Below, one piece after another: positions 2,953-49,800 of a DNA stretch of 64,000 nt. Numbering within the stretch: position 1 is the stretch's first letter; the number at the start of each line of letters is the position of its first letter. The position numbers were made by a program, and so were the translations under genes. This DNA comes from Mya arenaria (Eukaryota; Mollusca; Bivalvia; Myida; Myidae), in contig NC_069126.1 of NCBI RefSeq assembly GCF_026914265.1, positions 73,152,732 through 73,216,731 on the forward strand. The letters run 5' to 3'. Below the pieces are notes generated by a model, which saw only the letters and a program-made list of their open reading frames with translations, had not been told where the DNA came from and did not search any database.

Positions 2953-4170
2953 TGGACATTTATTGTTGAAAAGAAGTCATTTAGGTAATAGTTACTGCAC
3001 ATCTTTGAAGCGCTCATTAATCATTTTAATCAAAAGGGTACTAGGTAACATAACTCAGGGCTCTAAAGTTCAGGATTTATTCTGGAATTGGGATTGAGAG
3101 CTTTTTCTATAGACTATTGCATTGTTGTAAGGTGGTTTTTTATATTTGCATCAAAAACAGTAGAAAGTACCTTGAAATGAATATAAATGACTTTGGAAAA
3201 AGGGGTCTACTTTTCAAGATTGACAATTATCAGCTGTTAGATCCCCTGGAAACTGTTTGTATATGTTTGGACAATGTTCTATAACTGGTGTGCTGTATAG
3301 TGGATAGTGAAAAGCGCTGTAATTTATTTGCACGCTAGCTATGTAATGTATAGATGAAAACAAAGGGAACACTCATTAATGGTACATCTATTACTTTTGG
3401 TGTTATTGGCAGCATTGTCAGCTAAAGCTTTGGAAGGTATTGTTGCTTGGGGAATAAAGGACAGGGTTTTAGGGGAATAGAATGGAGAAGGGGATTTTAA
3501 CAACCCATAGGATATGTATATCTGTCTCTTTTTTTGGGGGGAAAGGGAAAGGGGGATGATGATTTTAGCAGAATAGACAGGTTTTGGAGATTACATGATA
3601 AACATATCTCTCTCTTCGTTTTTTGAGGGATGGGGAAATGAAAGGGGCGTGAGACTTTTAGGGGAATGTAAGGAAGTTAACAAACTACATTATACATTTA
3701 CATAGATCTGTCAGTGTAGATCTGTCAGTGTTTCTTTATTTGTTTGTTAGAGAAATTTTGTTATTGAAATCAATTGAAATTGCCAACCAAATAGTTATCT
3801 TTTTTCCTAAAGACTGAATGTTAATGTAATTTTAAAATAATTTTTACATTTAAGTATTAAGTATGTTAATATAATTTCATCAGAACTCATACTTCCCAAT
3901 GTAAGTTGTATGGTTTTTCATTCACATTTCCCAGTGATTTGCAATCAGCAATGATGTATTACAGATATTTAGCAATATTTTTGCGTTGTATTACATCTTT
4001 TCCATGCCACCATTTGCAATATCTTAAGAAATCCAATGTACTACTTGTAATATGCCAGTTATTTTATCATAAGTCATAAATTTTGTGACCCCATTATATT
4101 GTTATGGTATCATTTGAAGGTGTAATATTTGCAGATTACAGCACAAGAAATAAAGCACTAAAATACATTC
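2953..4170 (+). other. 3' UTR of the ANKS3-like gene
   Basis: No further coding sequence is seen. An AATAAA at 4149-4154 is the best distal polyadenylation signal; an earlier AATAAA at 3453-3458 is an alternative. A short direct repeat (AGATCTGTCAGTGT) lies near 3705-3730. UTR extent is inferred from the signals only. Confidence 0.45.
4149..4154 (+). terminator. Candidate poly(A) signal AATAAA
   Basis: Canonical hexamer about 1.2 kb after the ANKS3-like stop codon, in AT-rich sequence. Position and sequence are the only support. Confidence 0.4.
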
Positions 4171-7381: not shown

Positions 7382-7727
7382 TTAAAGCTGCACTCTCACA
7401 GATTGAACGTTTTGACAACCTTTTTATTTTTTGTCTTGGAATGAACTAATTTTGGCGAAAATCCATGGAAACCAGTTATATTAGACTGCTGACAAAAAAT
7501 TAAATTGCAGATTTTTATATTTAAGTTAAAAAATTGATGTTTTATGCATTTTTCTTAAACCGAAGGTAACGGTTTAAGCCATAAAACATTAATTTTGAAC
7601 GGAAATATTATAATCTATGCTCTGATTTTTTGTCAGCAATCTTATATCATTGGTTTGCAGATATTTACAAAAAGGCAAAAAATAAAAAAGTTGTAAAAAT
7701 GGTATATCTGTGATAGTGCAGCTTTAA
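7382..7727. mobile_element. Foldback MITE family A, copy 1
   Basis: A 346-bp sequence that is an inverted repeat along nearly its whole length. It starts TTAAAGCTGCACTCTCACAG and ends GTGCAGCTTTAA, with the centre near the paired TTAAACC and GGTTTAA. TTAA at both ends fits a TTAA target duplication of the piggyBac/Kolobok type. Related copies lie at 18837-19190, 22022-22374 and, as a 3' end only, 55645-55716. No coding capacity, so non-autonomous. Confidence 0.85.
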
Positions 7728-9070: not shown

Positions 9071-10612
9071 AACAAGAGATGTTTGTCGAACATTATGCCC
9101 CCCCTGAGCGCCATGTTGTCAGGATTAAATGGACAATTGAATGAAATATGCATGGACCGAAATGACAGCTGATTTATTGCTGTTTTAAGATTATGACCAT
9201 TAAAGTGTGAGGATAAAGTGTTTTATGACCGTCATGACCTTTGACTCTATGAACTCAAAATCCAGAGTCATCAGCTGGTCACCAGGAATCTAAATGTCAA
9301 GTTTGAGGGCCATGGGTGCAGGCATTGTCAAGTTATCACAAGACAAGTTTTTTTCGTTCAAGGTCACTGTGACCTTGACCTTTGACCTGATGACCCCTTA
9401 AATCATAAGGGGTCACCTACAAGTCAGATGCAACTCCAAGTCAAGCTTGAAGGCCATGGGTTCAGGCATTGTTGAGTTATCACTCAGACAACCTTTTACC
9501 ATTCCAGGTCACTGTGACCTTGACCTTTGGCCAGATGACCCCCAAAAACCATAGGGGTCATCTCCTGGTCAGGCCAATTCTCCAAGTCAAATTTGAGGGC
9601 CATGGGTGCAGGCATTGCTGAGTTATCAGTCGGACAACCTTTTACCATTCAAGGTCACTGTGACCTTGACCTTTGGCCCAATGATCCCCAAAACAATAGG
9701 GGTCATCTACTGGTCAGGCCCAACCTCCAAGTCAAGTTTGAGGGCCATGGGTGCAGGCATTGTTGAGTTATCACATGAACAACCTTTTACCATTAAAGGT
9801 CACTGTGACCTTGACCTTTGACCCATTGAGTCCAAAAAACAATAGGGGTCAGCTACTGGTCAGGCCCAACCTCCAAGTCAAGTTTGAGGGCCATGGGTGC
9901 AGGCATTGTCACGTTATCACTCGGACAACCTTTTACCATTCAAGGTCACTGTGACCTTGACCTTTGGCCTGATGACCCCCAAAAACAATAAGGGTCAACT
10001 ACTGGTCAGGCCCAACCTCCAAGTCAAGTTTGAGGGCCATGGGTGCAGGCATTGTCACGTTATCACTCGGACAACCTTTTACCATTCAAGGTCACTGTGA
10101 CCTTGACCTTTGGCCTGATGACCTCCAAAAACAATAGGGGTCAACTACTTGTCAGGCCCAACCTCCATGTCAAGTTTGAGGGCCATGGGTGCAGGCATTG
10201 TCACGTTATCACTCGGACAACCTTTTACCATTCAAGGTCACTGTGACCTTGACCTTTGGCCTGATGACCCCCAAAAACAATAGGGGTCAGCTACTGGTCA
10301 GGCCCAACCTCCATGTCAAGTTTGAGGGCCATGGGTGCAGGCATTGTTGAGTTATCACTCGGACAAGCTTTAAAATTATTTTACCATTAAAGGTCACTGT
10401 GACCTTGACCTTTGACCCGATGACCCCCAAAATCAATAGGGGTCATCTACTGGTCAGCCCCAACCTTCATGTGAAGTTTGATGACCATACGTCCAGGGAT
10501 TGTTGAGTTATCACTCGGACAAGCTTTGGTCTACCGACGGACGGACCGACCGACATACCGACATGCCTGTGCAAAGCAATATACCCCTCTTCTTCGAAGG
10601 GGGGCATAAAAA
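9071..10612. mobile_element. ATGCCCC-ended repetitive element with 146-bp internal tandem units
   Basis: The left end has ATGCCCCCCC (about 9095) and the right end the inverse GGGGGGCAT (about 10598-10606), preceded by GACGGACGGACCGACCGAC. The interior is about eight tandem units of 145-146 bp carrying GAGGGCCATGGGTGCAGGCA, TCGGACAACCTTTTACCATT, AGGTCACTGTGACCTTGACC and AATAGGGGTCA. The last unit has a ~10-bp insertion. The same end structure (TATGCCCC, GTCCGTCCG, AAGGTCA) recurs at 56331-56470. No transposase frame; the short frames inside repeat with the unit. From general knowledge this looks like a repeat widespread in bivalve genomes. Confidence 0.8.
9361..10415. promoter_or_regulatory. 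Array of eight perfect ERE-like palindromes with an adjoining ERRE/NR5A-type half-site
   Basis: The 15-mer AGGTCACTGTGACCT occurs, unchanged, at 9361, 9506, 9652, 9797, 9943, 10089, 10235 and 10391. It is the inverted repeat AGGTCA-N3-TGACCT, the consensus oestrogen response element, and the GGTCACTGTGACC core is the complement of the classic vitellogenin-type ERE. In every copy TGACCTTGACCTTTG follows, whose complement contains TCAAGGTCA, the extended half-site of ERR and NR5A receptors. The match is seen directly; receptor binding is not shown. Confidence 0.6.
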
Positions 10613-14473: not shown

Positions 14474-14546
14474 GACCTTGTGGCCTAATGGATAAGGCGT
14501 CGGCCTCCGGAGCCGAAGATTGTGGGTTCGAGTCCCATCAAGGTCG
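14474..14546 (+). tRNA. tRNA-Arg (anticodon CCG)
   Basis: A 73-nt cloverleaf without intron. The acceptor stem GACCTTG pairs with CAAGGTC, followed by discriminator G. A box TGGCCTAATGG, anticodon stem TCGGC/GCCGA with loop CTCCGGA (CCG), and B box GGTTCGAGTCC are all intact. A TTTT run directly follows, as expected for RNA polymerase III termination. The 3' CCA is not encoded, as usual in animals. It lies about 250 bp from the CCDC12 start codon, transcribed away from it. Confidence 0.96.
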
Positions 14547-15017: not shown

Positions 15018-16190
15018 ATACTGGTACATGAACAATAATTCCGTGAGGTAGGAAGGATCATTAGAAGACCACTGGTACATGAACAGTAGTTGCGTGAGGT
15101 AGGCAGGTGCATCATTAGCAGACCACTGGTACATGAACAATAGTTCCGTGAATACTGGTACATGAACAGTAGTTCCGTGACCACTGGTACATGAACAGTA
15201 GTTCCGTGAAGTAGGCAGGTGCATCATTAGCAGACCACTGGTACATGAACAATAGTTCCGTGACCACTGGTACATGAACAGTAGTTCCGTGAGGTAGGCA
15301 GGTGCATCATTAGCAGACCACTGGTACATTAACAATAGTTCCGTGACCACTGGTACATGAACAGTAGTTCCGTGAGGTAGGCAGGTGCATCATTAGCAGA
15401 CCACTGGTACATGAACAGTAGTTCCGTGACCACTGGTACATGAACAGTAGTTCCGTGACCACTGGTACATGAACAGTAGTTCCGTGACCACTGGTACATG
15501 AACAGTAGTTCCGTGAAGTAGGCAGGTGCATCATTAGCAGACCACTGGTACATGAACAGTAGTTCCGTGACCACTGGTACATGAACAGTAGTTCCGTGAA
15601 GTAGGCAGGTGCATCATTAGCAGACCACTGGTACATGAACAATAGTTCCGTGACCACTGGTACATGAACAGTAGTTCCGTGAAGTAGGCAGGTGCATCAT
15701 TAGCAGACCACTGGTACATGAACAATAGTTCCGTGACCACTGGTACATGAACAATAGTTCCGTGACCACTGGTACATGAACAGTATTTCCGTGAGGTAGG
15801 CATGTGCATCATTAGCAGACCACTGGTACATGAACAATAGTTCCGTGACCACTGGTACATGAACAGTAGTTCCGTGAGGTAGGCAGGTGCATCATTAGCA
15901 GACCACTGGTACATGAACAGTAGTTCCGTGAGGTAGGCAGGTGCATCATTAGCAGACCACTGGTACATGAACAATAGTTCCGTGACCACTGGTACATGAA
16001 CAGTAGTTCCGTGAGGTAGGCAGGTGCATCATTAGCAGACCACTGGTACATGAACAGTAGTTCCGTGAGGTAGGCAGGTGCATCATTAGCAGACCACTGG
16101 TACATGAACAGTAGTTCCGTGAGGTAGGCAGGTGCATCATTAGCAACATGAACAGAAGTTCCGTGAGGTAGGCAGGTGCATCATTAGAAG
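15018..16190. repeat. Composite 29/54-bp minisatellite derived from a LINE reading frame
   Basis: About 28 copies of a 29-bp module A (ACTGGTACATGAACARTAGT, TCCGTGA, two-base link), about 15 of them followed by a 25-bp module B (GTAGGCAGGTGCATCATTAG). A+B makes 54 bp. On the minus strand A+B reads NDAPAYLTELLFMYQWSA in frame. The right flank (16140-16215) runs without a break into a degenerate LINE reading LKLLLFIFKYSSNDAPAYLT, so the repeat unit is a piece of LINE ORF2. The left flank (about 15003-15020) reads MYQYNMVH. The long minus-strand frames here are repeat products, not genes. Confidence 0.92.
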
Positions 16191-16194
16191 AATA

Positions 16195-16995
16195 CTTGAA
16201 GATAAACAGTAGCAATTTCAAATTAGTTCTGGCCTTGATAGGTCACCGATGTAGTTCATATGTAGAGGTTGTTTAGAACTTTTTCCACAGTTTAAGACTA
16301 GTTTTGCACATATATTTTGAATACGTCGCGTTTTGAGTAGATTACAATCTGCTATGCCAAACAGCATATAATTGGAATAATCTAAGTGCGAAATGACAAA
16401 TGAAAGTACAAGGATTTTGTAGCATTTGAAAAAAGAATTTTTCTAGAGAGTTTAGCATTACCTTAGAACACACTGACTGGCCGAACTTTGTCACCAGCTA
16501 TGGCGTTTTCGTTTGTACATCTGCAACATCTATTTAACTGTGCCCTATCCAAACATAATAAATTCTGTTTTTGAGGTGGTCATTTTAAATTTGATTGCTT
16601 TCATTCACCCGTTTATTGTCACTGCACATTTTTCAAGTTCTTTGATCGCGTTTAATTCATTATTAACAGAAGTTGGCCGAAAACGTTTGTTCGCAGTGTG
16701 GTTAACTGCGACTCCATAGACCGATATGGATGATGGGATGACAATTAATAATGTTCCAGCATATGTGAGATAGAGTGTCTCTAACTGCCTTGTGGAACAC
16801 TGCATTCCAATGTACGCGGAAATGAATGTGTTGCGGTGTTGGTACACACACGACAACTGCACTGAGATCAATGAGCGTTTTTACCTCTTGATTCTCATGC
16901 CAATCTGCAGGTCAATTACAAATTTAAGTAAAGCCGTGATAACGTATGTAGGCCGACTGGTTCTTAGAATGAAGATCGTGGTTTTCAACATGACT
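16195..16995 (-). pseudogene. Degenerate non-LTR retrotransposon (LINE) reverse-transcriptase fragment
   Basis: Minus-strand translations, with frameshifts and stops between them, give reverse-transcriptase landmarks in the expected order: HDLHSKNQSAY (about 16948-16980), TLIDLSA, AYIGMQCS, ISVYGVAVNHTANK (about 16700-16725), NNELNAIKELE, SKTEFIMFG (about 16560-16585), LDYSNYMLFGIADCN (about 16360-16395), RRIQNICAKLVLNCGKSS, and LKLLLFIFKYSSNDAP. VYGVAVN sits where the catalytic YADD should be, so both aspartates are lost. The 3' continuation has been expanded into the adjoining minisatellite. Family assignment (jockey/CR1-like) is by motif recognition only. Dead element. Confidence 0.8.
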
Positions 16996-18836: not shown

Positions 18837-19190
18837 TTAAAGAGCTGCACTCTCACAGATATACCATTATTACAACCCTTTTTTATTTTTTTTGTCTTGG
18901 AAAGAGCAAATTTTTGCATAAATATCTGCAAACCAAGGATATAAGATTGCTGACAAAAAATCAGATCGTAGATTTTCATATTTCCGTTCGAAACTTAATG
19001 TTGTTACTAACGGTTTAAGAAAAATGCATAAAACATCCATTTTTGAACTTGAATATAAAATCTGCGATCTAATTTTTTGTCAGCAGTCTTATTTAAATTG
19101 TTTCCATAGATTTTTCCAAAAATTGGCTTGTTCCAAGACAAAAAATAAGAAAGTTGTCAAAACGTTCAATCTGTGAGAGTGCAGCTTTAA
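18837..19190. mobile_element. Foldback MITE family A, copy 2
   Basis: A 354-bp inverted repeat. Left end TTAAAGAGCTGCACTCTCAC; right end CTGTGAGAGTGCAGCTTTAA. Internal landmarks TTGTCTTGGAA, CTGACAAAAAATCAGATCG and the complementary TTTTTTGTCAGCAG match copies 1 and 3. Confidence 0.87.
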
Positions 19191-20044: not shown

Positions 20045-20670
20045 ATTTTTTATTATACCGAACAAAATTAAGTGATTAAAATAGTTTTAAAATGTATTTA
20101 ATCAAACAAGTTTAACAAGGTAAACAAAATATAACATGATTAAATAAATATATCCAGAACAAAATTCAACCTTGAATTATGCTAAAATTCCTTCTAAAAC
20201 TGTTGTCTGATGTTTTTGTGTACACATTAAATAGTGACGTCACTAATGTATGTGTATAAGGGAGGCAATCACGTATGATTTAGCTATTGAAGCAGTTATT
20301 TGGCCTTAAATGACATTTAAAATGTCACTGCGGTCACATGACCAGACAGTAAATTTTGGCTTGGTCACGTGCCAAAAATGTGTTGCAAATGTTTCTGTCA
20401 GTCAAAATATCTCTGTTTCGGGTAATGGGATTTTACCATTGTAGACAAAAGTGAGGTATAATAAATACTGGATATATTGTGATAAAATGATGTTCGTCTT
20501 CTAAATCATTAGATTTACAAACAAAACAATACAATAACGTTGAGCTCTATCTATTCTATTTCGGCCATATGCTTATAACAAATAATGGTTTTAAATATAA
20601 TTACATAATAAGTTTCTATAATAATGAAAGGTTTATGTAATGACAATCTTAGCTTAGACAAAGACATACT

Positions 20671-20679
20671 TAGTTTCGT
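20671..20679 (+). repeat. Left 9-bp target-site duplication of the giant element
   Basis: TAGTTTCGT, identical to 32443-32451 at the far end, directly abutting the terminal inverted repeat. Confidence 0.85.
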
Positions 20680-20754
20680 ATGTGCGTGAAGTTAGCACCG
20701 TAGCACCGTATCCCCATATCACCGCGGTGATGCGGTGCTAGCACCGTATCACCA
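20680..20754 (+). repeat. Left terminal inverted repeat of the giant element
   Basis: Starts ATGTGCGTGAAGTTAGCACC. It includes two perfect 14-bp palindromes, ATCACCGCGGTGAT and CGGTGCTAGCACCG. It differs from the complement of the right copy at only two positions (34 and 72). Confidence 0.9.
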
Positions 20755-20798
20755 TCAAAATCTATACAATAAGAGGACATGCAATATTCTCGAAGAAA

Positions 20799-20934
20799 CA
20801 TGTAAGGCTCGTTCTCGCAGAAACGAGCAAGGGGACCATAGGGGCCTATGTCACTGTGTAGCCGAGACCTGGCCCTAGGTGATGGCACATGTGAATACCC
20901 TAGGATTTTAGGCAGGCTATGCGGGATAGGGACA
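20799..20934 (-). repeat. Inverted satellite segment, copy 1
   Basis: Minus-strand match to the main satellite (complement reads GTCCCTATCCCGCATAGCCT, then CCTAAAATCCTAGG). It is identical over 136 bp to 21158-21293. Confidence 0.85.
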
Positions 20935-21157
20935 TGAACTCGATCCCCCATGCCAATTTGGCCCATATTCAGACACTGTTATGGTGCGGATGCCTTAAAA
21001 ACGAGCAAGGGGACCAATGGCACTGTATCCAAGGGTTACCTGGCGGTGTGATACATTCGGGGAAACTGTTAATACTACGAGGATTTTAGTCTGGCCCCGT
21101 CCTTAGCCCAACATTGTGCGTATATGGGCAATATAAGCCCTACTGACCCCTACCATA

Positions 21158-21293
21158 CATGTAAGGCTCGTTCTCGCAGAAACGAGCAAGGGGACCATAG
21201 GGGCCTATGTCACTGTGTAGCCGAGACCTGGCCCTAGGTGATGGCACATGTGAATACCCTAGGATTTTAGGCAGGCTATGCGGGATAGGGACA
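21158..21293 (-). repeat. Inverted satellite segment, copy 2
   Basis: 136 bp apparently identical to 20799-20934, 359 bp further on, in the same inverted orientation. A more diverged inverted piece lies between them near 21001-21120. Confidence 0.85.
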
Positions 21294-21560
21294 AACTGAC
21301 CCAAAATTTTTACCTCGGGGACATAACGATAAGTGTAGGGATGAACTATGCCACGAGGCTTACTTTATGGTCAATTTTATTTCGCTGGAGCTGTTGTACT
21401 GAATAGCCGAAATAGAGCTCGAAAATGGATCTTTGCTGCTGCAAAAGCCATTTTTGGGACGAACTGACCCGATTATTCGACTAAGAGGTCCTTAACAGAA
21501 AGTGTAATGATAACTAGGTTCAGGGCCTATAATGTGAACTATAGATAATAATAATACTCT

Positions 21561-21890
21561 TTCATGGCTCATGTTCTAGGCATTGACACGTTTGCTTAAA
21601 ATTATCATGGCTATTGCCACTATGCTAGAGTTGTCGGCATATGGAATCTCTTCAACCTCAAATATACCATTGTATTCGGAAAAGTCTGGTTTGAGCACAT
21701 TAACATGTGAGCATTGCCTTATACCTCAATATGCTGTGATGGCTCATGTTTGAGGCATTCACGAGTTAATGTTCAATTAACATGAATATTGCCAGAGTGG
21801 TAGGAATTTGGAATCACTTCAACCTCACATAGGCCATTGATCTGGGGAAACTCTGGTCTGAGCATAATGAACGAACACATGAATATACAT
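21561..21890 (+). repeat. ~180-bp tandem duplication inside the giant element
   Basis: ATGGCTCATGTTCTAGGCAT, then GGAATCTCTTCAACCTCA, recurs diverged as ATGGCTCATGTTTGAGGCAT and GGAATCACTTCAACCTCA. Both halves end in a shared CTCTGGT/GTCTGGT-TGAGCA box. Confidence 0.75.
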
Positions 21891-22021
21891 CGCTAAGGTG
21901 TTTGAGCACACAACATGAAAATCCCGTGTCAATAGAAAAAAACGTTATTTTGGTAAATGAAATGTAAATTATTGAGAACACTGCGTTGGAGATTGATTAA
22001 CACCGGGTTGCAGACATCAGG

Positions 22022-22374
22022 TTTAAAGCTGCCCTCTCACAGATTTACCGTTTTTCCATTTTTAAAAAAAAAAAATTGTCTTGGAATTGGAAAATATTGC
22101 GTAAATATCTGCTTACCAGTGATTAAAGACTGCTGACAAAAAATCAGATCGCAGATCTTCATATTTCCATTCCAAATTTAATGTTTTATGGCTTAAACCG
22201 TTACTAAGAGAAATGCATAAAACATCAATTTTGGGACGGAAATATGTAAAGCTGCGATCTGATCTTTAGTCAGCAGTTTTTTACCATTAGTTTGCAGATA
22301 TTTACGCAAAAAAATTCTCGTTCCAAGACAAAAAAAGGTGTCAAAACGTTCAATCTGTGAGAGTACAGCTTTAA
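22022..22374. mobile_element. Foldback MITE family A, copy 3 (inside the giant element)
   Basis: A 353-bp inverted repeat. Left TTAAAGCTGCCCTCTCACAG; right CTGTGAGAGTACAGCTTTAA; internal CTGACAAAAAATCAGATCGC. It lies in the non-satellite left part of the element. Confidence 0.85.
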
Positions 22375-23370
22375 AGCTTAGCTTCAGATTTGAAAGGTAG
22401 GGTGTTTCTAGCACAGTTTCGAATTTAAATTGGCCCTATATAAGAAACAGTCGCAACATAGTACCTGTTTAACAAAAACAATAGCTTTATATTTTTTAGA
22501 GACAGATATTGCCGAAATTTACCTTCAATGCCTTATAGATAGAAATTTGGGATCCCCGATTCGCATCTTACGATGAACAATCGAATGATGACTAAACGAT
22601 TGACTGCTACCGAATATCCGTATTAACGGAGGGTACACAGGGGTAGCATTTTGGATGGTATAAGAGGTGCAGGAGAGAAAACAGTGATTACTTACAGGGG
22701 AAAAGAGGGCTTTTCGTTTAGCAGTGTTGTTGAGTATCCAATATGTTTACTTTTAGATAAAGATAAGTAGCATTATCTTTATGTTTAGGTCTATAAACGT
22801 ATGCTACATATATACAATATATTTCTTGAATGAATTATATTTAAAAATATGGTAACATTTTGTAAACTTATGAATATGTTAGTATCCTTTCCTGAATGTG
22901 GCCATTTGAAGCGGTAATTTATCAAAGCCTGTCATTAATAAGCATACATCAAGTACATAAATATGCATTAATCACAAATCAGCATTGCTCTCCGGGATAC
23001 GACATTATGTAACGGCAAACATCTTCACCGTATTCCGGGATAGTTCCAAGCCTCTGTCCTGTGTATGTATTACAAAATGCACAGTTTTAGAATTATTTTA
23101 GCCGCGCATTTGTTTAGGTGTTAACATATTTTCGGCTAACATGGAAGACGTCACATTCCCAATGTGACGCCATAAAATTAACGTTTTATGTCCATATAAA
23201 TAAACAAATATTACATCAAAGTGCACAGTTCAAGGCTGAATTTAGACATAGCGATATTATAGCGTAAGAACCCTCCAATCTCCTAATTTATTTCTGCCGC
23301 ATATACTATGCTTCAAGGGGAAGACGGATCAAGACTAAGTTGTGATCCCTAGGAAATATCAAATCGTATT

Positions 23371-24326
23371 AAAGTGCACTGTTGTTTACGGCCATCACAC
23401 AATAAGGTGTAGACATCGTAATAACCCTAAATACAAATAAAAGCCGGACCTATTTATTTATTAAATTGCCTATGACAGGCACATTTATATACACACATTA
23501 AACACGCATTAAGAACCAAATGTATGTCCCTATCTCGAATAGCCTTTCGAAAAAGTTATTCACATAAGGCCTCACCAAGGGCCAGGTCTCAGTTACACTG
23601 TGATATTGGTCGATATGGTACCCTTGGTCGTTGTAAGGATTCCGCAACATAAACGGTAAGTATGTGGGTCAGGTAGGTGTTGGGAGCTTATTTCATGTCC
23701 CTATCCCGCATTATCACCCTAAAATCCTAAGTGATTCACATACAGAATGTGTAAGGAAGCATTACTGAAAGGATTTCTTAAATGAAATGAAGTATTTTTT
23801 TAACGATTCTTGAATGAAATAATGAACTATTGGTGTAAATATAAGGAATTAAATGCGGGGTTGATATCATTATCGGGGTATGAACGCAATCGGGCTTGTC
23901 AAAGTATGTGGAGTCCGAACCCTGCAATTCATTCCTTAAGTAAATACTAAAGTGCACTGTCGTTTACGGCCATCACACAATTAGGTGTTAACACCGTAGT
24001 AACTCTAAATACAAATAAAAGCTGGACCTATTTATTTATTTAATTGCCTATGACAGGCACTTTTATATACACACATTAAACACGCATTAAGAAATAAATG
24101 TATGTCCCAATCTCGAATAGTCTTTCGAAAATCCGAAGTTATTCACATAAGGCCTCACCAAGGGCCAGGTCTCAGTTACACTGTGATATTGGTCGATATG
24201 GTACCCTTGTTCGTTGTAAGGATTCCGCAACATAAACGGTAAGTATGTGGGTCAGGTAGGTGTTGGGAGCTTATTTCATGTCCCTATCCCGCATTATCAC
24301 CCTACAAGTCTAAGTGATTCACATAT
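23371..24326 (+). repeat. Two ~375-bp direct repeats at the start of the satellite array
   Basis: 23371-23742 and 23949-24326 share AAAGTGCACTG, TTTACGGCCATCACACAA, ACAAATAAAAGC, CCTCACCAAGGGCCAGGTCT and GTGGGTCAGGTAGGTGTTGG at high identity, with ~205 bp of unique sequence between. Their second halves are satellite monomers. Confidence 0.88.
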
Positions 24327-27300
24327 GCCATAAACTTAAACCAGTCTCGGCTATACAGTGGCAATGGTTCGCTTGCTTGTTTTAAGGTTATCGCACCATA
24401 ACAGTTGTATATTGGATATTAGGTATTGGGAGTCTTACCATGTCCTATCCTGCATAACTTGCCTAAAATCCTAGGTTATTCAAATATATGCCATCATTTG
24501 GTGCAAGGTCTCGGCTGAACAGTGACATATGTCCATATTGTCGCAGTGCACGTTTTAATGTTTCCACACAATAACAAACAATAACGCTGCAAGAACATCG
24601 TGTAAATTACTAATATGCATAATGGGCATATTTTATGTCCCTATCCCAGATAGCATAGGATATTTTCATGTTTCAACACCGAGTATGGCCAGGTCTCGGC
24701 TAAACGGTGACATAGGTCGCTATGGTCTCCTTTCTCGTTTAAAGGTTTCCGCACCATAACATGTTAGTAATGCCAGGTAGGCATTGGAAGAATTTTTCAT
24801 GTCCCTATCTAGCCTAGCATAACTTGCCTAGGTTGATCCATATACCATCACTTCAAGCCAAATATTGGCTACAAAGTGTCATAGGTTACTACTCATTGTA
24901 ATGTTATCGCACCATAAAAGTTGTATATTGGCTAAATAGTACTTTGGATTCTTTTGAATGCCTCTTCCCCGCAAAATCTGCCTTAAATCCTAACTAATTC
25001 ACATATGGAATCATCTGGGGTAAAGTCTCGGCTACACAGTGACTAAGGTCGCTATGATCTCTTTGAGTGTTGTAAGGTTTCCGCACCATAACAATGCCAG
25101 AATATAAATAACTAAATATCCATTAGGAGCAAATTTCATGTCCCTATCCCGCATAGCCTGCATAAATTCCTATGATATTCATATGTTTACTCACCGTGTA
25201 TGGCCAGGTCGCGATTTGGGTGGCTATGGTATATGTGTTCGTGTTCATGTTTTCGCTGTTTGTTATTAATGCAATGAAGGCATTTGGAGCTTATTTCATG
25301 CCCCTTTCCCTCGAAGCCTGGGTAATTCTTGGTAATTCAGCGATGTTATCACTTAAAGCGAGGTCTGGGCTACAAAGTGCCATAGGTCCCTTCGTGCGCT
25401 TGCTCGTGTTAAGGGTTTCGCACCGTTTTAGTTGTATATTGGGTAAATAGGAATTGGGAGTCATTTTCATTTCCCTATCCCGCATAACCTGCCTATATAT
25501 TTACATAAACCATCATCTGGGAAAGGTCAAGTCTACTTAGTAACGTAAGTCACTATGTCCCCTTACTCGTTTTAAGGTTTCCGCGCAATGCCAGATTATG
25601 AGGGAAATAGACATTGGTAGCCTTTCCATGTCCCTTTCCTGCATAGCCTGCCTAGGACTAGGTCTTAGCTACACGCTGACATAGGTCGTTATGGTCCACT
25701 TGCTCGTTGTAATGTTTCCGCACCATAACTTGTAATGAATATGTGGCAAATAGGCATTGGGAGCATTTTCCATGTCTCTATCTCGCATAGCATGCCTACA
25801 ATACGAGGTTATTCATATGAAGTATCACATAGGACAATATCTCGTCTATAAGGTGACATAGGTTGCTATGGTCCCGTTTGTCGTTTTAAGGTTTCTGAAC
25901 CATAACATGTAACGAATATGTGTCAAATAGACATTGGGAGCCTTTTCCATGTCCCCATCACACATAGCCTGCCTAAAATCCTGTTATATCACCTAAGACT
26001 AGGTTTCGGCTAAACGATGACATAGGTCGCTTTGGTCCCGTTTCTCGTTTGTTTTAAGTTTTCTGCACCATAATATGTAATGAATATAGGACAAAAGCCA
26101 TTGGGAGCATTTTTCTAGTCCCCAACTCGCATAGCATGCCTAATATCCTAGGTTATTCATATGCACTATGACCTAGGACTAGGTCTCGACTACATTATGG
26201 CATAGGTCGATATGGTACCCTTGATCGTTTTATTTTTTCCGCGCCATAACCAGTTAATGACTATGCCGTAAATAGGAATATGGAGCCCTTTCCATGTCCC
26301 TATCACGCATAGTCTGTCTAAAATAATAGGTTACTCATATATTCTATCACCTACGACTAGGTCTCGTCTATAAGGTGAAATAGGTCGATATGGTCCCGTT
26401 TCTCGTTTTAAGGTTTCTGCACCATAGCATATAATGAATATGAGTCAAATAGGCATTGGGAGCCTTTTCCACGTCACCATCCCACATAGCCTGCCTAAAA
26501 TCCTAGGTTATTCATAACTAAGATTAGGTTTTTTGCTAAACAATGACATAGGTCGCTTTGGTCCCGTTTCTTGTTTTAAGTTTTCTGCATCATAACATGT
26601 AATGAATATGAAGCAAATGAGCATTGGGACCCTTTTTCCATGTCCCCATATCGCATAGCCTGCCTAAAATCCTAGGTAATTTAAATGCATTATCACCTAG
26701 GACTAGATCTAAGATACACGCTGACATAGGTCGGTATGGTATCCTTGTCTGTTTCAAGGTTTCTGCACCATAACCTTTAATGAGTATGAGGTAAAATAGG
26801 CATTGTGAGCATTTTCCATGTCCCAATCTCGCATAGCCTGCCTAAAATCCTGGGTAATTCATATGTATTAACATATAGGATTAGGTCTAAGCAACGAGCT
26901 GACATCAGTCGCTGTGGTCCCCTGGCTCGTTTTAAGGTTTCAGCACCATAACCTTTAATGAATATGAGGTAAAAATAGGCATAGGGAGCCTTTTCCATGT
27001 CTCTATCTCGCACAATCTGCCTAAAATCCTAGATAATTCATAAATACTATCACCTAGGACTAGGTCTAAGATACAAGCTGACATAGGTCGCTATGGTCCC
27101 CTTGCTCGTTTTAAGGTTTCTGCACCATAACATGTAATAAACATTAGGCAAATTGAAAATGGGAGCCTTTTCCATGTCCCTATCTTGCATAGCCTGCCTA
27201 AAATCCTAGGTAATTAATATATACTATCACCTAGGACTAGGTCTACGCAAAGAACTGTCAAAGGGCGCTATGGTCCACTTGCTCGTTTTAAGTTTTTTTC

Positions 27301-30300
27301 ACCATAACATTTAATGAATATGAGGCAAATAGGCATAAGGGGCCATTTTCCATGTCCCTATATCACATAGCCTGCTTAAAATTATAGGTAATTCATATGT
27401 ACTATCACCTAGGACTAGGTCTAATCAACAAGCTGACAAAGGTCGCTTTGGTCCCCTAGCTCGTTTTGAGGTTTTTGCACAATAACATTTAATGAATTTG
27501 GCATTGAGAGCATTGACCATGTCCCTATCACGCATAGCCTGCCGAAAATATTACGTTATTGATATGTACTATCATCTAGGACTCGGTCTCTGCTACATGG
27601 TGACATAGGTCGCTATTGTCCCCTTGCTTGTTTTATGGTTTCTGCACCAAAACATGTATAGAATATGAATCAAATATACATTGGGAGCCTTTTCCATGAC
27701 CCTATCTCGCATAGCATACCTAAAATCCTAGGTTATTCATATGTACTATCATCTAGGACTAGGTCTCGGCAGCATGATGACAAAGGGCTATATGATCCCC
27801 ATGCTCTTTTAAGGTTTCCGCACCATAACATGCAATGAATATGAGACAAATAGGCATTGTGAGCATTTTCCATGTCCCTATCTCGCATAGTCTGCCTAAA
27901 ATCTTAAATATTCATATGTACTATCACCTAGGACTATGTTTAAGATACACGCTGACATAGGTCGGTATGGTCTCCTTGCTCGTTTGAAGGTTTTTGCACC
28001 ATAACATTTAATGAATATGAGGTAAAAATAGGCATTGGGAGCCTTTATCATGTCCTTATCTCGCATAACCTGCCTAAAATCCTAGGTAGTTCATATGTAC
28101 TTTCACCTAGGATAAGGTCTATACTACACGCTGATATAGGTCGCTGTGGTCCCCTTGCTGGTTTTAAGGTTTCTGCACCATAACATGTAATGAATATGAG
28201 GCAAATAGGGATTGGGACCCTTTTCCTTGTCCCTATCTCGCATAGTCTGCCTTAAATCCTAGGTAATTCATATGTACTATCACCTAGGACTAGGTCTCGG
28301 CTACACGCTGACATAGGCCGCTATGGCCCCCTTGCTTGTTTTAAGGTTAAAGCATCATAACATGTAATAATATGAGGCAAATAGGGATTTGGAGCCTTTT
28401 CCATGTCCCTATCTCGCATAGCCTGCCTAAAATCCTGGTAATACATATATACTATCACATAGGACTAGGTTTAATCCACGAGCTGACATAGGTCACTATT
28501 GTCCTCTTGCTCGTTTTAAGGTTTCTGCACCGTAACATTAAATGAATATGAGTTAAAAATAGGCATTTGGGGCCTTTTCCATATCACTTTCTCGCACAAT
28601 CTGCCTTAAATCCTATGTAATTCATATGTACTATCACCTAAGATTAGGTTTAAGCAACGACCTGCCATAGGTCGCTATGGTCCCTTTGCTCGTCTTAAGG
28701 TTTTTGCACCATAACATGTAATGAATATGAGGAAAATAGGCATTGGGAGCCTTTTCCATGTTGTCCCTATCACCCATAGTCCACCTAAAATCCTAGGTAA
28801 TTAATATGTACTATCACCTAGGTCTTGGTCTAAGCTACACGCTGACATAGTGCGGTATGGTCCCCTTGCTCGTTTGAAGGTTTTTGCACAATAACATGTA
28901 ATGAATATTAGGACAATGGACCTTGAGAGCATTATCCATGTCCCTATCTCGCATAGCCTGCCTAAAATCCTAGATAATTCATATGTACTATCATCTAGTA
29001 CTAGGTCTGTCCTACATGGTGACATAGGTCGCTTTGGTCACCTTGCTCGTTATCAGGTTTCCGCACCAAAACATGTATATAATATGAATCAGACATGCAT
29101 TGGGAGCCTTTTCCATGTCCCTATCTCGCATAGCATGCCTAAAATCCTAGGTTATTCATATGTACTATTACCTAGTACTAGGTCTCGGCTACATGATGAC
29201 AAAGGTCGATATGGTCCCGATGCTCGTTTTAAGGTTTCCGCACCATAACATGTATTGAATATTAGACAATTATACATTGGGAGCCTTTTCCATGTCCCTA
29301 TCTCGTACAATCTGCCTAAAATCCTAGGTATTCCATATGTACTATCACCTAGGACTAGGTCTAAGCAACAAACTCTCATAGGTCTCTATGGTCCCCTTGC
29401 TCGTTTTAAGTTTTCTTCACCATAACATGTAATGAAAATAAGGCAAATAGGCTTTGTGAGCATTTTCCATGTCCCTATATCGCATAGCCTGCCTACAATT
29501 CTAGATAATTCATATGTTCTATCATCTAGCACTAGGACTGAGCAACGAGCTGACATAGGTCGCTTTGGTCCCCTTGCTCGTTTTAAGGTTTTTGCACCAT
29601 AGCATGTAATGAATATGAGGCAAATATGCATTGGTAGCCTTTATCATGTACCTATCACTCATAGCCTACCTAAAATCCTAGGTAATTCATATGTACTATC
29701 ACCTAGGACTAGGTGTAAGCTACACGCTGACATAGGGCGCTATGGTCCCCTTGCTCGCTTGAACGTTTCAGCACCATAACATGTAATGACTATGAGGCAA
29801 ATATACACTGGGAGCCTTTTCAATGTCCCTATCTCGCATAGCCTGCCTAAAATCATACGTTATTAATATGTACTATCACCTAGGACTAGGTCTCTGCTAC
29901 ATGGTGGCTTAGGTCGCTTTGGTCCCGTTTCTCGTTTTAAGGTTTCTGCACCATAACATGTAATTAATACGAGGCAAATAGGCATTGAGAGCCTTTTTCA
30001 TATACGTATCTCGCATAGCGTGCCTAAAATCCTATGTTATTCATATGTACTATCACCTAGGACTTGGTCTCGGCTACATGGTGACACATGTCGCTGTGGT
30101 CCCCTTGCTCGTTTTAATGTTTTCGTGCCATAACAAGTTTATGGCAATGCGGCAAATATATATTGGGGGTCTATTCCATGTTTCTCTACCGCAAAGCCTG
30201 CCTTAAATCCTAGGAATTTCATATGTTCAATCACCTAAAACTAGGTCTCGGCTAAACGATGAAATACGTTTCTCTGGTCCCGTTTCTCGTTTTAAATTTT

Positions 30301-32330
30301 CTGCACCATAACATGTAATGAATATGAGACAAATAGGGATTGGGAGCCTTTTCCATGTTCCTATCTCGTATAGCCTGCCTATAATCCTAGGTAATTCATA
30401 TGTACTTTCACCTAGGACTAGATCTAAGTCACACACTGACATAGTTCGCTATGGTCCCCTTGCTCGTTTTAAGGTTAATGCACCATAACATGTAATAATA
30501 AGAGGCAAATATGTATTGAGAGCCTTTTCCATGTCCCTTAATCGCATAGCCTGCCTAAAACCCTAGGTAATTCATATGTACTATCACCTAGGACTTGGTC
30601 TAAGCAACGAACTGACAAAGGTCGCTATGGTGACGTATGGTCCCCTTAATTATTTTAAGGTTTCTGCACCATACCATGTAATAAATGTGAGGCAAATTGG
30701 CATTGGGAGCATTTTTTATGTCCCTATCTCACATAGCCTGCCTAAAATCCTAGGTAATTCATATGTACTATCATCTAGGACTACGTTCAAGCAACGAGCT
30801 GACATAGGTCGCTATTGTCCCCTTGCTCGTTCTTAGGTTTCTGCGCCATAACATTTAATGAATATCAGGTAAAAATAGGCATTTGGAGCCTTTTCCATGT
30901 CACTTTCTGTCACAATCTGCCTAAAATCCTAGGTAATTCATATGTACTATCACCTAGGAATAGGTCTAAGCAACGAACTGGCATAGGTCGCTATGGTCCC
31001 CTTGCTCGTTTTAAGGTTTCTTCACCATAACATGTAATGAATATGAGGCAAATAGGCATAAGGGGCCTTTCCCATGTCCCTATATTGCATAGCCTGCCTA
31101 AAATCCTAGATAATTCATATGTACTACCACCTAGAAAAAGATCTAAGCAACAAGCTGACATAGGTCGCTTTGGTCCCCTTGCTCGTTTTAAGGTGTTTGC
31201 ACAATAACATGTAATGAATATGAGGGAAATAGCCATTGGGAGATTTTTCCATGCCCCTATCACTCATAGCCTACCTAAAATCCTAGGTAATTCATATGTA
31301 CTATCACCTAGGACTAGGTCTAAGATTCACACTGATATAGGGCGCTATGGTCCCCTTGCTTGTTTGAAGGTTTTTGCACCATAACATGTAATGGATATGA
31401 GGAAAATATACATTGGGAGCCTTTTCTAAGTCCCTATCTCGCATAGCCTGCATAAAATCCTAGGTTAGTCATATGTACTATCACCTAGGACTAGGTCTCT
31501 GCTACATGGTGACAAAGGTCGCTTTGGTCCCGTTTATCGTTTTATGGTTTTTGCACCATAACATGTCATTTATAAGAGGCAAATAGGCATGGGAGCCTTT
31601 TCCATGTACGTATCTCGCATAGCCTGCTTAAAATCCTAGGTTATTCATATGTACTATCAACTAGGACTAGGTCTCGGCTACATGGTGACATATGTCGATA
31701 TGGTCCCCTTGCTTGTTTTAAAGTGTCCGTGCCATAACCAGTTAATGAATATGCGGCAAATAGACATTGGGGGTCTATTCTATGTTCCTCTACCGCAAAG
31801 CCTGTCTAAAATCCTAGGTTATTCACAAATACTATTACCTAGGCCCAGTCCTCGGCTACACGATGACATAGGTCGTTATGGTCTCCATGCTCATTTTGAG
31901 GTTTCCGCACCATAGTTATACAATTTTATGCGATAAATAGTCATTTGGAACCTATGTCATCTCCTTATTACGCCTATTCAGCCTGAAATCCTAGGAAATT
32001 AACATGTTCTATCACCCATGGCCATGTTTTGGCTACACGGTGACATTGATCGCTATGGTCCCATCGCTGATTTTAAGGTTTCCCCTGTATATGAGTTACT
32101 GACTATGTGGTTAATTGAGTAACACAAAAAATAACACGTATACTTTACTTATAATTATAAACCAACGTTTCGGCGTGTTTTTTTACTGACTATGTGGCAA
32201 ATAGCCATTATGTGCCTATATTCAAATACGGCATTGCCGGCCTAAAATCCTAGGTTATTCACATGCAACTTTTACCTATGGTTAGGTCTTGCCCCCACAG
32301 TGTTATAGGTGTCATATCAAGGAATAAGAG
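23520..32330 (+). repeat. ~177-bp satellite array, about 50 diverged monomers
   Basis: Each monomer has, in order, ATGTCCCTATCTCGCATAGC, CTGCCTAAAATCCTAGG, TTCATATGTACTATCACCTA, GGTCTAAGC or GGTCTCGGC, CTGACATAGGTCGCTATGGT, CCCCTTGCTCGTTTTAAGG, TTCTGCACCATAACATGTAA and AGGCATTGGGAGCC. Spacing is about 170-180 bp (for example 27172 to 27350). Monomers at the left and far right are more diverged and the middle more uniform. The palindrome CCTAGG recurs in most monomers. All short reading frames here are repeat products. Confidence 0.93.
32096..32197. mobile_element. 72-bp insertion with 15-bp direct repeats in a satellite monomer
   Basis: TTACTGACTATGTGG at 32096-32110 is repeated at 32183-32197, bracketing 72 bp (32111-32182) that is foreign to the satellite and includes ACCAACGTTTCGGCGTG. 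A 15-bp exact flanking repeat looks like a target-site duplication of a tiny, probably retrotransposed fragment. Confidence 0.6.
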
Positions 32331-32367
32331 ACTCTTAATACTACTAGTATACTGATCTGACAATATA

Positions 32368-32442
32368 TGGAGATACGGTGCTAGCACCGCATCACCGCGG
32401 TGATATGGTGATACGGTGCTACGGTGCTAACTTCACGCACAT
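32368..32442 (-). repeat. Right terminal inverted repeat of the giant element
   Basis: The complement starts ATGTGCGTGAAGTTAGCACC and continues through both 14-bp palindromes; 73 of 75 positions match the left end. Confidence 0.9.
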
Positions 32443-32451
32443 TAGTTTCGT
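32443..32451 (+). repeat. Right 9-bp target-site duplication of the giant element
   Basis: TAGTTTCGT, identical to 20671-20679. Confidence 0.85.
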
Positions 32452-32454
32452 TGG

Positions 32455-33148
32455 TAAAACATCTAGATAAAGTTCTATTTCAAAATGTTCCTTAATGAGG
32501 ATAGAGTATTACGATTGCTTATCCCTTCATACCGTACGTGGTATGATACCTTAACATCTCAACCAAGAATGGAATACTATTATTGTAGATTCAAACAAGA
32601 ATTTTTATTTGAAGAATATTTAACATGTGTCATAAATGATAAATTCCGAAAAGAATAATCAAGATTTAGACTATCATCTCATTGAATGGAAAAAGAGACT
32701 GGGCGAAATACTAATACTAACAGAGAAAACAGAAAAGATAAACTTTGTTCACATGACACTGTGGAGTCTGAATATCATTTTTTACTTTGTTGTACAGCCT
32801 ATTCAGATCTTAGAAAAAATATCATATTAATTTAATTGGCCAAATATGGCTATATTTAAATATTTGATGTCAGTAAAGAGGGATTTATTTTCACAAAACT
32901 TTAAAAGCTAAGTCTGTATATAGTGCTATGAAATTAAGACAAGAAATGCCAGACGTTTAGCTGCTTCTATTGGTTATATTTTCATATATATTATTAGGAT
33001 ACTGCTTTTGTAAATAGATATGTTATGTCATCACATAATTGCTTATCATTATACCATCGTATCTTGGCCATATTAAAATAGATAGTTTGTAAATGACCAA
33101 AGGCAAACATGCCGATTCGCCAATAAACTCTTGAAACCCTTGAAACCA
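32455..33148 (+). pseudogene. LINE ORF2 C-terminal fragment with 3' end
   Basis: A plus-strand frame with two in-frame stops reads FKMFLNEDRVLRLL, TWYDTLTSQPRMEYYYCRF, KQEFLFEEYLTC, SRFRLSSH and VESEYHFLLCCTAYSDLRK. This is the typical post-RT region of mollusc LINEs (a C-rich zinc-finger-like VESEYHFLL..C segment). It is followed by a 3' UTR with AATAAA (about 33123) and a tail of CTTGAAACC repeats ending near 33148. It begins directly beside the target duplication of the giant element. Inactive. Confidence 0.75.
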
Positions 33149-46777: not shown

Positions 46778-46813
46778 CCTAGCCTTACTCTATCCTCAGG
46801 AATTGACTTGTAA

Positions 46814-49800
46814 CGGTACATGTGTAATTAGGGGGAACGGTACATGTGTAACTGGCGGGGAACGGTACATGTGTAACTAGCGGGGAACGGTACATGTGTA
46901 ACTAGCGGGGAACGGTACATGTGTAACTAGCGGGGAACGGTACATGTGTAACTAGCGGGGAACGGTACATGTGTAACTGGCGGGGAACGGTACATGTGTA
47001 ACTGGCGGGGAACGGTACATGTGTAACTGGCGGGGAACGTTACATGTGTAACTGGCGGGGAACGGTACATGTGTAACTGGCGGGGAACGGTACATGTGTA
47101 ACTGGCGGGGAACGGTACATGTGTAACTGGCGGGGAACGGTACATGTGTAACTGGCGGGGAACGGTACATGTGTAACTGGCGGGGAACGGTACATGTGTA
47201 ACTGGCGGGGAACGGTACATGTGTAACTGGCGGGGAACGGTACATGTGTAACTGGCGGGGAACGGTACATGTGTAACTGGCGGGGAACGTTACATGTGTA
47301 ACTGGCGGGGAACGTTACATGTGTAACTAACGGGGAACGTTACATGTGTAACTACCGGGGAACGGTACATGTATAACTACCGGGGAATGGTACATGTGTA
47401 ACTGGCGGGGAACGGTACATGTGTAACTGGCGGGGAACGGTACATGTGTAACTGGCGGGGAACGGTACATGTGTAACTGGCGGGGAACGGTACATGTGTA
47501 ACTGGCGGGGAACGGTACATGTGTAACTGGCGGGGAACGGTACATGTGTAACTGGCGGGGAACGGTACATGTGTAACTGGCGGGGAACGGTACATGTGTA
47601 ACTACCGGGGAACGGTACATGTATAACTACCGGGGAATGGTACATGTGTAACTAGCGGGGAACGGTACATGTGTAACTGGCGGGGAACGGTACATGTGTA
47701 ACTAGCGGGGAACGGTACATGTGTAACTGGCGGGGAACGGTACATGTGTAACTGGCGGGGAACGGTACATGTGTAACTGGCGGGGAACGGTACATGTGTA
47801 ACTAGCGGGGAACGGTACATGTGTAACTAGCGGGGAACGGTACATGTGTAACTGGCGGGGAACGGTACATGTGTAACTAGCGGGGAACGGTACATGTGTA
47901 ACTAGCGGGGAATGGTACATGTGTAACTGGCAGGGAACGGTACATGTGTAACTAGCGGGGAACGGTACATGTGTAACTAGCGGGGAACGGTACATGTGTA
48001 ACTAGCGGGGAACGGTACATGTGTAACTAGCGGGGAACGGTACATGTGTAACTGGCGGGGAATGGTACATGTGTAACTGGCGGGGAACGGTACATGTGTA
48101 ACTAGCGGGGAACGGTACATGTGTAACTAGCGGGGAATGGTACATGTGTAACTAGCGGGGAATGGTACATGTGTAACTAGCGGGGAATGGTACATGTGTA
48201 ACTAGCGGGGAATGGTACATGTGTAACTAGCGGGGAATGGTACATGTGTAACTAGCGAGGAACGGTACATGTGTAACTAGCGGGGAAAGGTACATGTGTA
48301 ACTAGCGGGGAATGGAACATGTGTAACTAGCGGGGAATGGTACATGTGTAACTAGCGGGGAACGGTACATGTGTAACTAGTGGGGAACGGTACATGTGTA
48401 ACTGGCGGGGAATGGTACATGTGCAACTAGCGGGGAAGGGTACATGTGTAACGGTACATGTGTAACTAACGGGGAACGTTACATGTGTAACTAACGGGGA
48501 ACGGTACATGTGTAACTACCGGGGAACGTTACATGTGTAACTACCGGGGAACGGTACATGTGTAACTAGCGGGGAATGGTACATGTGTAACTAGCGGGGA
48601 ACGGTACATGTGTAACTAGCGGGGAATGGTACATGTGTAACTAGCGGGGAACGGTACATGTGTAACTAGCGGGGAATGGTACATGTGTAACTAGCGGGGA
48701 ATGGTACATGTGTAACTAGCGGGGAACGGTACATGTGTAACTAACGGGGAACGGTACATGTGTAACTAACGGGGAACGTTACATGTGTAACTACCGGGGA
48801 ACGGTACATGTGTAACTAGCGGGGAATGGTACATGTGTAACTAGCGGGGAACGGTACATGTGTAACTAGCGGGGATCGGTGCATGTGTAACTAGCGGGGA
48901 ACGGTACATGTGTAACTAGCGGGGAATAGTACATGTGTAACTAGCGGGGAGCGATGCATGTGTAACTAGCGGGGAATGGTACATGTGTAACTAGCGGGGA
49001 ACGGTACATGTGTAACTAGCGGGGAATGGTACATGTGTAACTATCGGTGAATGGTTCATGTGTAACTAGCGGGGAACGGTACATGTGTAACTAGGGGGGA
49101 ACGGTACATGTGCAACTAGCGGGGAACGGTACATGTGTAACTATCGGGGAATGGTTCATGTGTAACTAGCGGGGAACGGTACATGTGTAACTATCGGGGA
49201 ACGGTACATGTGTAACTAGCGGGGAACGGAACATGTGTAAATAGCGGGCAACGGTACATGTGTAACTAGCGGGGAACGGTACATGTGTAACTAGCGGTGA
49301 ACGGTACATGTGCAACTCGTGGGGAACGGTACAGGTGCAACTAGCGGGGAATGGTACATGTGTAAATAGCGGGGAACGGTACATGTGTAAATAGCGGGGA
49401 ACGGTACAGGTGCAACTAGCGGGGAACGGTACATGTGTAAAAAGCGGGGAACGGTACAGGTGCAACTAGCGGGGAACGGTACATGTGTAAATAGCGGGGA
49501 ACGGTACAGGTGCAACTAGCGGGGAACGGTACAGGTGCAACTAGCGGGGAACGGTACATGTGTAAATAGCGAGGAACGGTACATGTGTTACTAGCGGGGA
49601 ATGGTACATGTGTTACTAGCGGGGAACGGTACATGTGTAACTAGCGGGGAACGATACATGTGTAACTAGCGGGGAATGGTACATGTGTTACTAGCGGGGA
49701 ACGGTACATGTGTAACTAACGGGGAATGGTACATGTGTAGCTATCGTGGAACGGTACATGTGTAACTAGCGGGGAATGGTACATGTGTAACTAGCGGGGA

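Follow-up and report, generated by a model that had tools for sequence, protein, structure and literature searches.

Rehavkus-1_TC of Tribolium castaneum is described as a 9.5-kb DNA transposon with the 164-bp satellite TCsat23 in its inverted termini (PMC10218199), and Rehavkus elements in general are reported to have 9-bp target site duplications (TSDs) and terminal inverted repeats (TIRs) of 26-400 bp (PMC6446971). The transposase that defines them combines a PHD finger with a Rehavkus-type DDE domain. Tetris of Drosophila virilis is presented as a non-autonomous foldback element with ~220-bp repeats in its inverted arms and TSDs of 8-10 bp, and its TIR-220 arrays, of up to 66 copies, are said to have arisen inside the element; in the three structurally complete, TSD-flanked copies no TIR exceeds 1,735 bp, and its authors propose that transposition may have been disrupted where arrays were larger (PMC4079207). 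Tm1 of root-knot nematodes, placed in the Mutator/Foldback family, is described as having composite terminal repeats with tandem repeats, non-autonomous members and mostly 9-bp TSDs, in 45 of the 53 elements with duplications of 8-10 bp (PMC3169594). For the bivalve Helentrons, the authors cite an inverse relation between repeat number and mobility (PMC7492417). In the transmissible cancer of Mya arenaria, DNA transposons are reported to be enriched among amplified elements, 8 of 45 (PMC10663159).

The window analyzed here is a 64-kb stretch of Mya arenaria DNA, and it holds an element of 11,763 bp (20680-32442) whose inverted ends, 75 bp each, match at 73 of 75 positions (Table 1). We consider it very likely that this is a non-autonomous foldback-type DNA transposon with arms made of one satellite in opposite orientations, that transposition carried ordered blocks of its R-arm monomers, and that a Mutator/Rehavkus-class transposase would probably serve it in trans. 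The inverted ends and the identical 9-bp flanks named in the original prediction were both seen again in the sequence, and its proposal that the stretch moved as one unit agrees with the TSD and with paralogous empty sites. The window copy has no transposase frame, as had also been proposed; stop-to-stop frames reach at most 117 aa, the longest falling within the satellite. Satellite sequence, counted as monomer profile plus 359-bp unit, makes up 0.76 of the window element, and the profile, which was built from the right array, gave 50 hits on the plus strand and 2 on the minus strand. All monomer hits of the window fall within 20858-32291, with none outside the element, and both arrays start within about 80 bp of the adjoining TIR. 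The predicted satellite share of ~75% and the ~50 monomers thus stood, with the refinement that the array is divided: the two left hits are inverted relative to the right array and part of a separate 359-bp repeat.

Table 1. Features of the window element and of the site in which it lies (window positions).
Feature	Position	Strand	Basis or remark
Left target site duplication, TAGTTTCGT	20671..20679	+	Uninterrupted counterpart at paralogous empty sites
Left terminal inverted repeat, 75 bp, L type, continues TCAAAATC	20680..20754	+	
Left arm, 359-bp repeat unit, ~1.4 copies, 177-bp monomer inside in antisense	20798..21293	+	
Non-coding core, 95-97% identity to the six other elements holding the core	21316..23498		
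Nested MITE-like insert in core, TTAA-flanked, also in the other cores compared	22027..22370		Sequence reading, inverted matches
Right arm, ~50 tandem monomers of ~177 bp, mean within-array identity 0.73	23499..32291	+	
Right terminal inverted repeat, 75 bp, R type, continues TATATTGTCA	32368..32442	-	
Right target site duplication, TAGTTTCGT	32443..32451	+	
Dispersed host repeat split by the insertion, left piece	20631..20679	+	Continues 32452-32533

Several other features share the window. The MITE-like repeat, with TTAAAGCTGCNCTCTCACAGATT ends, was recognized by inverted matches at 7382-7648, 18938-19190 and 22023-22374, the last being the copy nested in the core. A 25-bp G-rich tandem repeat occupies 4.6 kb at 46812-51397 (reported as 92 copies, period 50), and further tandem arrays lie at 1030-1814 (period 54), 9296-10527 (period 146), 15020-16212 (period 54-307) and 62590-64000 (period 52 bp). 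Pfam was run on two window frames; the 450-aa frame at 57727-59079 matches Galactosyl_T (PF01762, E 1e-51) and likely belongs to a galactosyltransferase gene. A putative tRNA-Arg (ccg) was called by ARAGORN at 14474-14546, either a gene or a tRNA-derived repeat.

The eleven complete elements that were read are 1.0-21.0 kb long with satellite shares of 0.68-0.96 each. They contain 0 to 19 full-length 359-bp units, the copy with none being one with two R ends, and an incompletely fetched copy (L016) has at least 27. Every 359-bp unit has one antisense copy of the monomer inside it. The R arms of the complete elements hold 3 to 71 monomer hits, so that variation in monomer number, one of the checks proposed beforehand, was found. 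Monomer hits in both orientations, and with them the long composite inverted arms of tandem repeats by which foldback elements are recognized, are present in 10 of the 11; since the arms are unequal in length and in repeat type, the inverted match between them is partial. The window copy, with its 75-bp TIRs and adjoining arrays, also has the Rehavkus arrangement of a 26-400 bp TIR next to a satellite or minisatellite array. C9:33010470 and the C4 copies have L-type ends on both sides, with the right-hand 359-bp array in inverted orientation; C9:33010470 lacks a TSD, and that of the C4 copies is 8 bp long. Another copy, of 2.1 kb, is bounded by two R-type ends and flanked by an exact 9-bp TSD. 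These double-L and double-R copies indicate that the arms are exchangeable and the ends still usable. The satellite is not incidental cargo, and here the original prediction does not hold: it makes up the inverted arms in each of the 11 complete members. One arm is an array of 359-bp units and the opposite arm a ~177-bp array, and a single kind of monomer underlies both, in opposing orientations. A derivation of the monomer from the TIR is not claimed; on one strand, 182 of 300 shuffles aligned as well, and on the other the alignment covered only 13 columns, with 5 of 300 shuffles as good.

The host assembly (1.216 Gb, 18 contigs) was searched for the end, and its first 33 bp, with up to three mismatches, occur 219 times (114 on the plus and 105 on the minus strand; reversed control 0). 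The end is thus not confined to the window, which a search proposed with the original prediction was to establish. R-type ends number 53 in the genome (23-mer, up to two mismatches; control 0). Among the 100 places listed of the 219, 28 neighboring convergent end pairs were recognized, 1.0-38.4 kb apart, and these were joined by seven further pairings (alternatives and previously known pairs) into a set of 35 for TSD analysis. Inverted end pairs with 9-bp duplications do occur elsewhere, as had been anticipated: 16 of the 35 pairings have an exact 9-bp TSD, the Rehavkus length, two an exact 10-bp and three an exact 8-bp TSD, one has a TSD with one mismatch and 13 have none, so that 21 of the 35 have an exact duplication in the 8-10 bp range of foldback elements. 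For the 28 neighboring pairs alone, the figures are 15 exact 9-bp, two 10-bp, one 8-bp, one with one mismatch and nine without a TSD. Two of the 8-bp cases are the near-identical C4 copies, and the third lies within a run of A. The 16 9-mers are 73% A+T and have no clear motif. Some of the 13 pairings that lack a TSD either combine the ends alternatively or come from duplicated regions that are nearly identical; the remainder are not accounted for in this way.

Empty sites were sought with joined flanks containing a single copy of the target, and paralogous uninterrupted sites were found for all four insertions searched, in line with the check proposed earlier. For the window site, 38 of the 40 scored matches are non-self and cross the junction at 79-87%. 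All eight matches that were aligned read through, with the target as TAGTTTCTT in seven and TAGTGTCTA in the eighth. Given this many uninterrupted relatives, the insertion site belongs to a dispersed repeat whose length is ~130 bp or more. The 14.5-kb element at C2:12120103 has seven full-length empty-site matches at 97-99%, two of which were aligned. The weakest of the four cases is the 21.0-kb element at C2:49706457, with matches at 84-98% and only 12 bp across the junction; in many of its relatives the remaining sequence resumes ~0.2-0.3 kb further on. The fourth, C2:30519489-30569713 (L040, L041, L042), is a 50.2-kb unit whose outer ends are flanked by exact 9-bp copies of ACTTGTATG, and its single full-length empty-site match (L103; C2:32217331-32217530, 198/200) has ACTTGTATG once. 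This relative shares its contig with the insertion and could represent either the other haplotype or a segmental copy.

The empty sites, together with the different flanks that accompany exact 9-bp duplications at 16 pairings, make it very improbable that segmental duplication or assembly error, in place of transposition, accounts for the spread of the copies, although processes of that kind have left traces. The elements at C4:25840894 and C4:25957386 are 99.5% alike over the whole element and have the same flanks, and we read them as one insertion event. L006 and L007 (C10, C9) are 100% identical over 3 kb, as are L045 and L049 (C2, 1.2 Mb apart) over 1.5 kb, with differing right ends; such identity at distant loci suggests that false duplications or mis-joins may be present in the assembly. 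Among L001-L004, L008 and L026-L028 there are also left-half copies of the element that share one flank; those on C16 are separated by 0.14-0.34 Mb and those on C8 by 38.6 kb. Array lengths are given as assembled and depend on the accuracy of the assembly.

L026-L028 resemble the element over its first 2268 bp alone; beyond this stretch they consist of other DNA, in which an RT-like frame and cysteine-rich frames were recognized by eye. In L026 and L027, the frames that follow the left part of the element are cysteine-rich and exon-like and appear VWC- and ShK-like by eye.

The 50.2-kb unit consists, in order, of an inner complete set of R and L ends, ~32 kb of sequence, and a second L arm with its L end. 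The ~32 kb contain no monomer or 359-bp match among the matches listed, and their first 1.5 kb have no match to the element. If the unit entered as one piece, it represents a composite macrotransposition. We suggest tentatively, and hold it to be possible but doubtful, that the ends can act across very long spans and mobilize any DNA enclosed by them, in which case the family would spread host DNA as well as long arrays.

Evidence that arrays were delivered by transposition comes from the order of monomers in the R arm. Within one array, monomers are alike at 0.68-0.80 on average (0.73 in the window), a divergence that renders most of them individually recognizable. When R arms of elements at different sites are compared, monomers in register are 0.95-0.99 identical, versus 0.71-0.76 against all. 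Order was compared through reciprocal-best monomers at an identity of at least 0.93 in all 28 pairs of eight of the eleven elements, leaving out one near-duplicate and two elements with no more than 8 monomers. At least nine reciprocal-best monomers are common to 24 of the 28 pairs (maximum 39), and in these the order is fully conserved in 21 and one step out of order in three. The other four pairs share 0 or 1: three involve the C9 and C4 copies, in which the right end is replaced by an L arm, and the fourth involves C2:49706457, which has differing right-hand monomers. The window copy and C2:12120103, both with a TSD, share 34 monomers in order, the best matches of the latter being window monomers 0-29 and then, at the right end, 36-44. 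Six of the eight compared elements have their own exact TSD, a seventh has one at its outer end and C9:33010470 has none; R arms of TSD-bearing copies have as many as 66 monomer hits, spread over 11.6 kb. Diverged as the monomers are, their order serves as a fingerprint, and ordered blocks dozens of monomers long recur in copies with their own TSDs and, where tested, empty sites.

Such colinearity at different sites argues that the monomers travelled in ordered blocks, 30 or more at a time, and we infer that transposition delivered the long arrays and that the copies differ by blocks since lost or repeated. The seeding of satellite arrays at new sites, which the original prediction had put forward, is supported by these R-arm blocks at independent insertions. 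It is very improbable that a short element was inserted each time and the arrays grew afterwards in place, without long arrays having been delivered. Growth of this kind would agree with the wide variation in monomer number between elements and largely fits the L arm, where the identity of units within an element is highest in most cases, but it is contradicted for the R arm, since independent growth would not reproduce the same order of diverged monomers, at 0.95-0.99 identity, at sites with different TSDs. For the L arm, ten elements with two or more 359-bp units (2 to 27) were compared, and in 7 of these the units were on average more alike within the element than between it and each of the others; the two means were tied for C9, and the within-element value was slightly lower for the two C4 near-duplicates (0.96-1.00 within, 0.95-0.997 between, over all ten). 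This fits local homogenization of the L arm in most copies. Because the R arm keeps its order and the L arm is mostly homogenized, delivery and post-insertion growth can be separated in the same copies. Under the favored reading, in which transposition carried R-arm monomer blocks to new sites, the L-arm arrays would grow or shrink through unequal exchange within each inserted copy, and the R-arm arrays would mainly lose or repeat blocks.

Outside these elements the satellite appears to be scarce in the part of the genome surveyed. A monomer 22-mer, with up to two mismatches, has 2021 matches in the genome (control 0). The same 22-mer catches 212 monomers in the eleven elements, where the profile has 426 hits, and this capture rate gives a rough estimate of 4,000 monomers, or 0.7 Mb, for the genome. 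Of the first 100 exact matches listed of the 2021 (C1 and part of C2), 87 are inside paired elements, 11 are clustered within 13 kb of a further end and 2 are elsewhere, one of which adjoins two 359-bp units. Among these 100 matches in the assembled sequence, no free satellite array independent of transposon ends was found, and with 98 of them in or beside elements a classical free satellite array was rejected as a description.

As to the transposase, a genome search with the MULE profile PF10551, in which 150 of 153 candidates were scored, gave 54 matches. None of the 54 lies within 50 kb of a family end, judged against 137 of the 219 end positions, and the nearest is 277 kb away; the autonomous relative with the same ends that had been proposed was not found in this comparison. 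FLYWCH has 43 matches, some adjoining MULE matches (C3, C12, C2), and FLYWCH beside a MULE transposase is described as a Phantom-type feature (PMC3169594). One MULE plus FLYWCH locus (L102) was rejected as a partner, since its inverted ends consist of a ~31-bp tandem repeat and bear no sequence relationship to the family ends. In L102, inverted arrays of a ~31-bp C-rich repeat (423-535 and 3154-3264) frame the MULE locus, which represents another foldback-like element in the genome. The exact first 20 bp of the terminus precede a non-G base at only 3 places in the genome, two of them near known ends, so that no cousin family with the exact terminus is apparent.

The Mutator-type label suggested in the original prediction is accordingly based on TSD length and anatomy; a MULE transposase between matching ends was not found near the 137 end positions compared. 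We conclude from TSD size and arm structure that the family probably belongs to the Mutator/Rehavkus class. The 75-bp ends would then probably be cut and pasted in trans by a transposase of this class, which would make a 9-bp staggered cut in the target; the MULE transposases of the genome (54 matches) could act in this way, and the repeats might, as a purely hypothetical step, help the transposase bind. The same element could instead be mobilized by a transposase outside Mutator/Rehavkus, for example of the P or Merlin class. Foldback structures are reported to have arisen in several superfamilies, Galileo having a P-type transposase (PMC3169594), and no MULE partner with the family ends was found, but TSDs mostly of 9 bp, with some of 8 and 10, are in the range of Mutator-class foldbacks and, at 9 bp, of Rehavkus, and we regard this alternative as somewhat unlikely.

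Among mobile carriers of 140-180 bp satellite-like repeats, the bivalve Helentrons HINE and Pearl resemble the clam family (PMC7492417), and the bivalve host and the average repeat length typical of such elements would suit a non-autonomous Helentron. As described in that source, HINE and Pearl differ in having no TSD, other ends, and mostly up to 5 monomers, at most 29 in oyster; with 75-bp TIRs and 8-10 bp TSDs present here, it is extremely unlikely that the clam element is of their type. The tandem repeat-containing MITEs described from Donax trunculus are also clam elements with tandem repeats inside. Tm1 differs in its ~14-bp repeats, its length of 1-3 kb and, by the published description, its known autonomous Phantom-type member (PMC3169594). 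How satellite DNA arrives at new scattered sites is an open question, and the family described here shows a direct route for its spread. Two studies, as far as their cited statements go, expect long arrays to hinder mobility (PMC7492417, PMC4079207), and the clam family speaks against a strict limit. Titles and abstract openings in the open-licence literature gave no TIR element moving arrays of such length, a result that does not prove that none exists.

The arrays of Rehavkus-1_TC are reported to be mostly of five and eight monomers (PMC10218199), as against up to 66 hits over 11.6 kb in a TSD-flanked clam arm, and the clam family also differs in its unequal arms and in having no transposase inside. 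Compared with Tetris as published, the TSD-flanked clam copies share long arrays in the same order. The best reading of the family is that of a giant non-autonomous foldback element with an anatomy that, going by published descriptions, appears closest to those of Rehavkus-1_TC and Tetris; its mobile arms are longer than in the published examples found, and we read it as the same kind of element at a larger scale.
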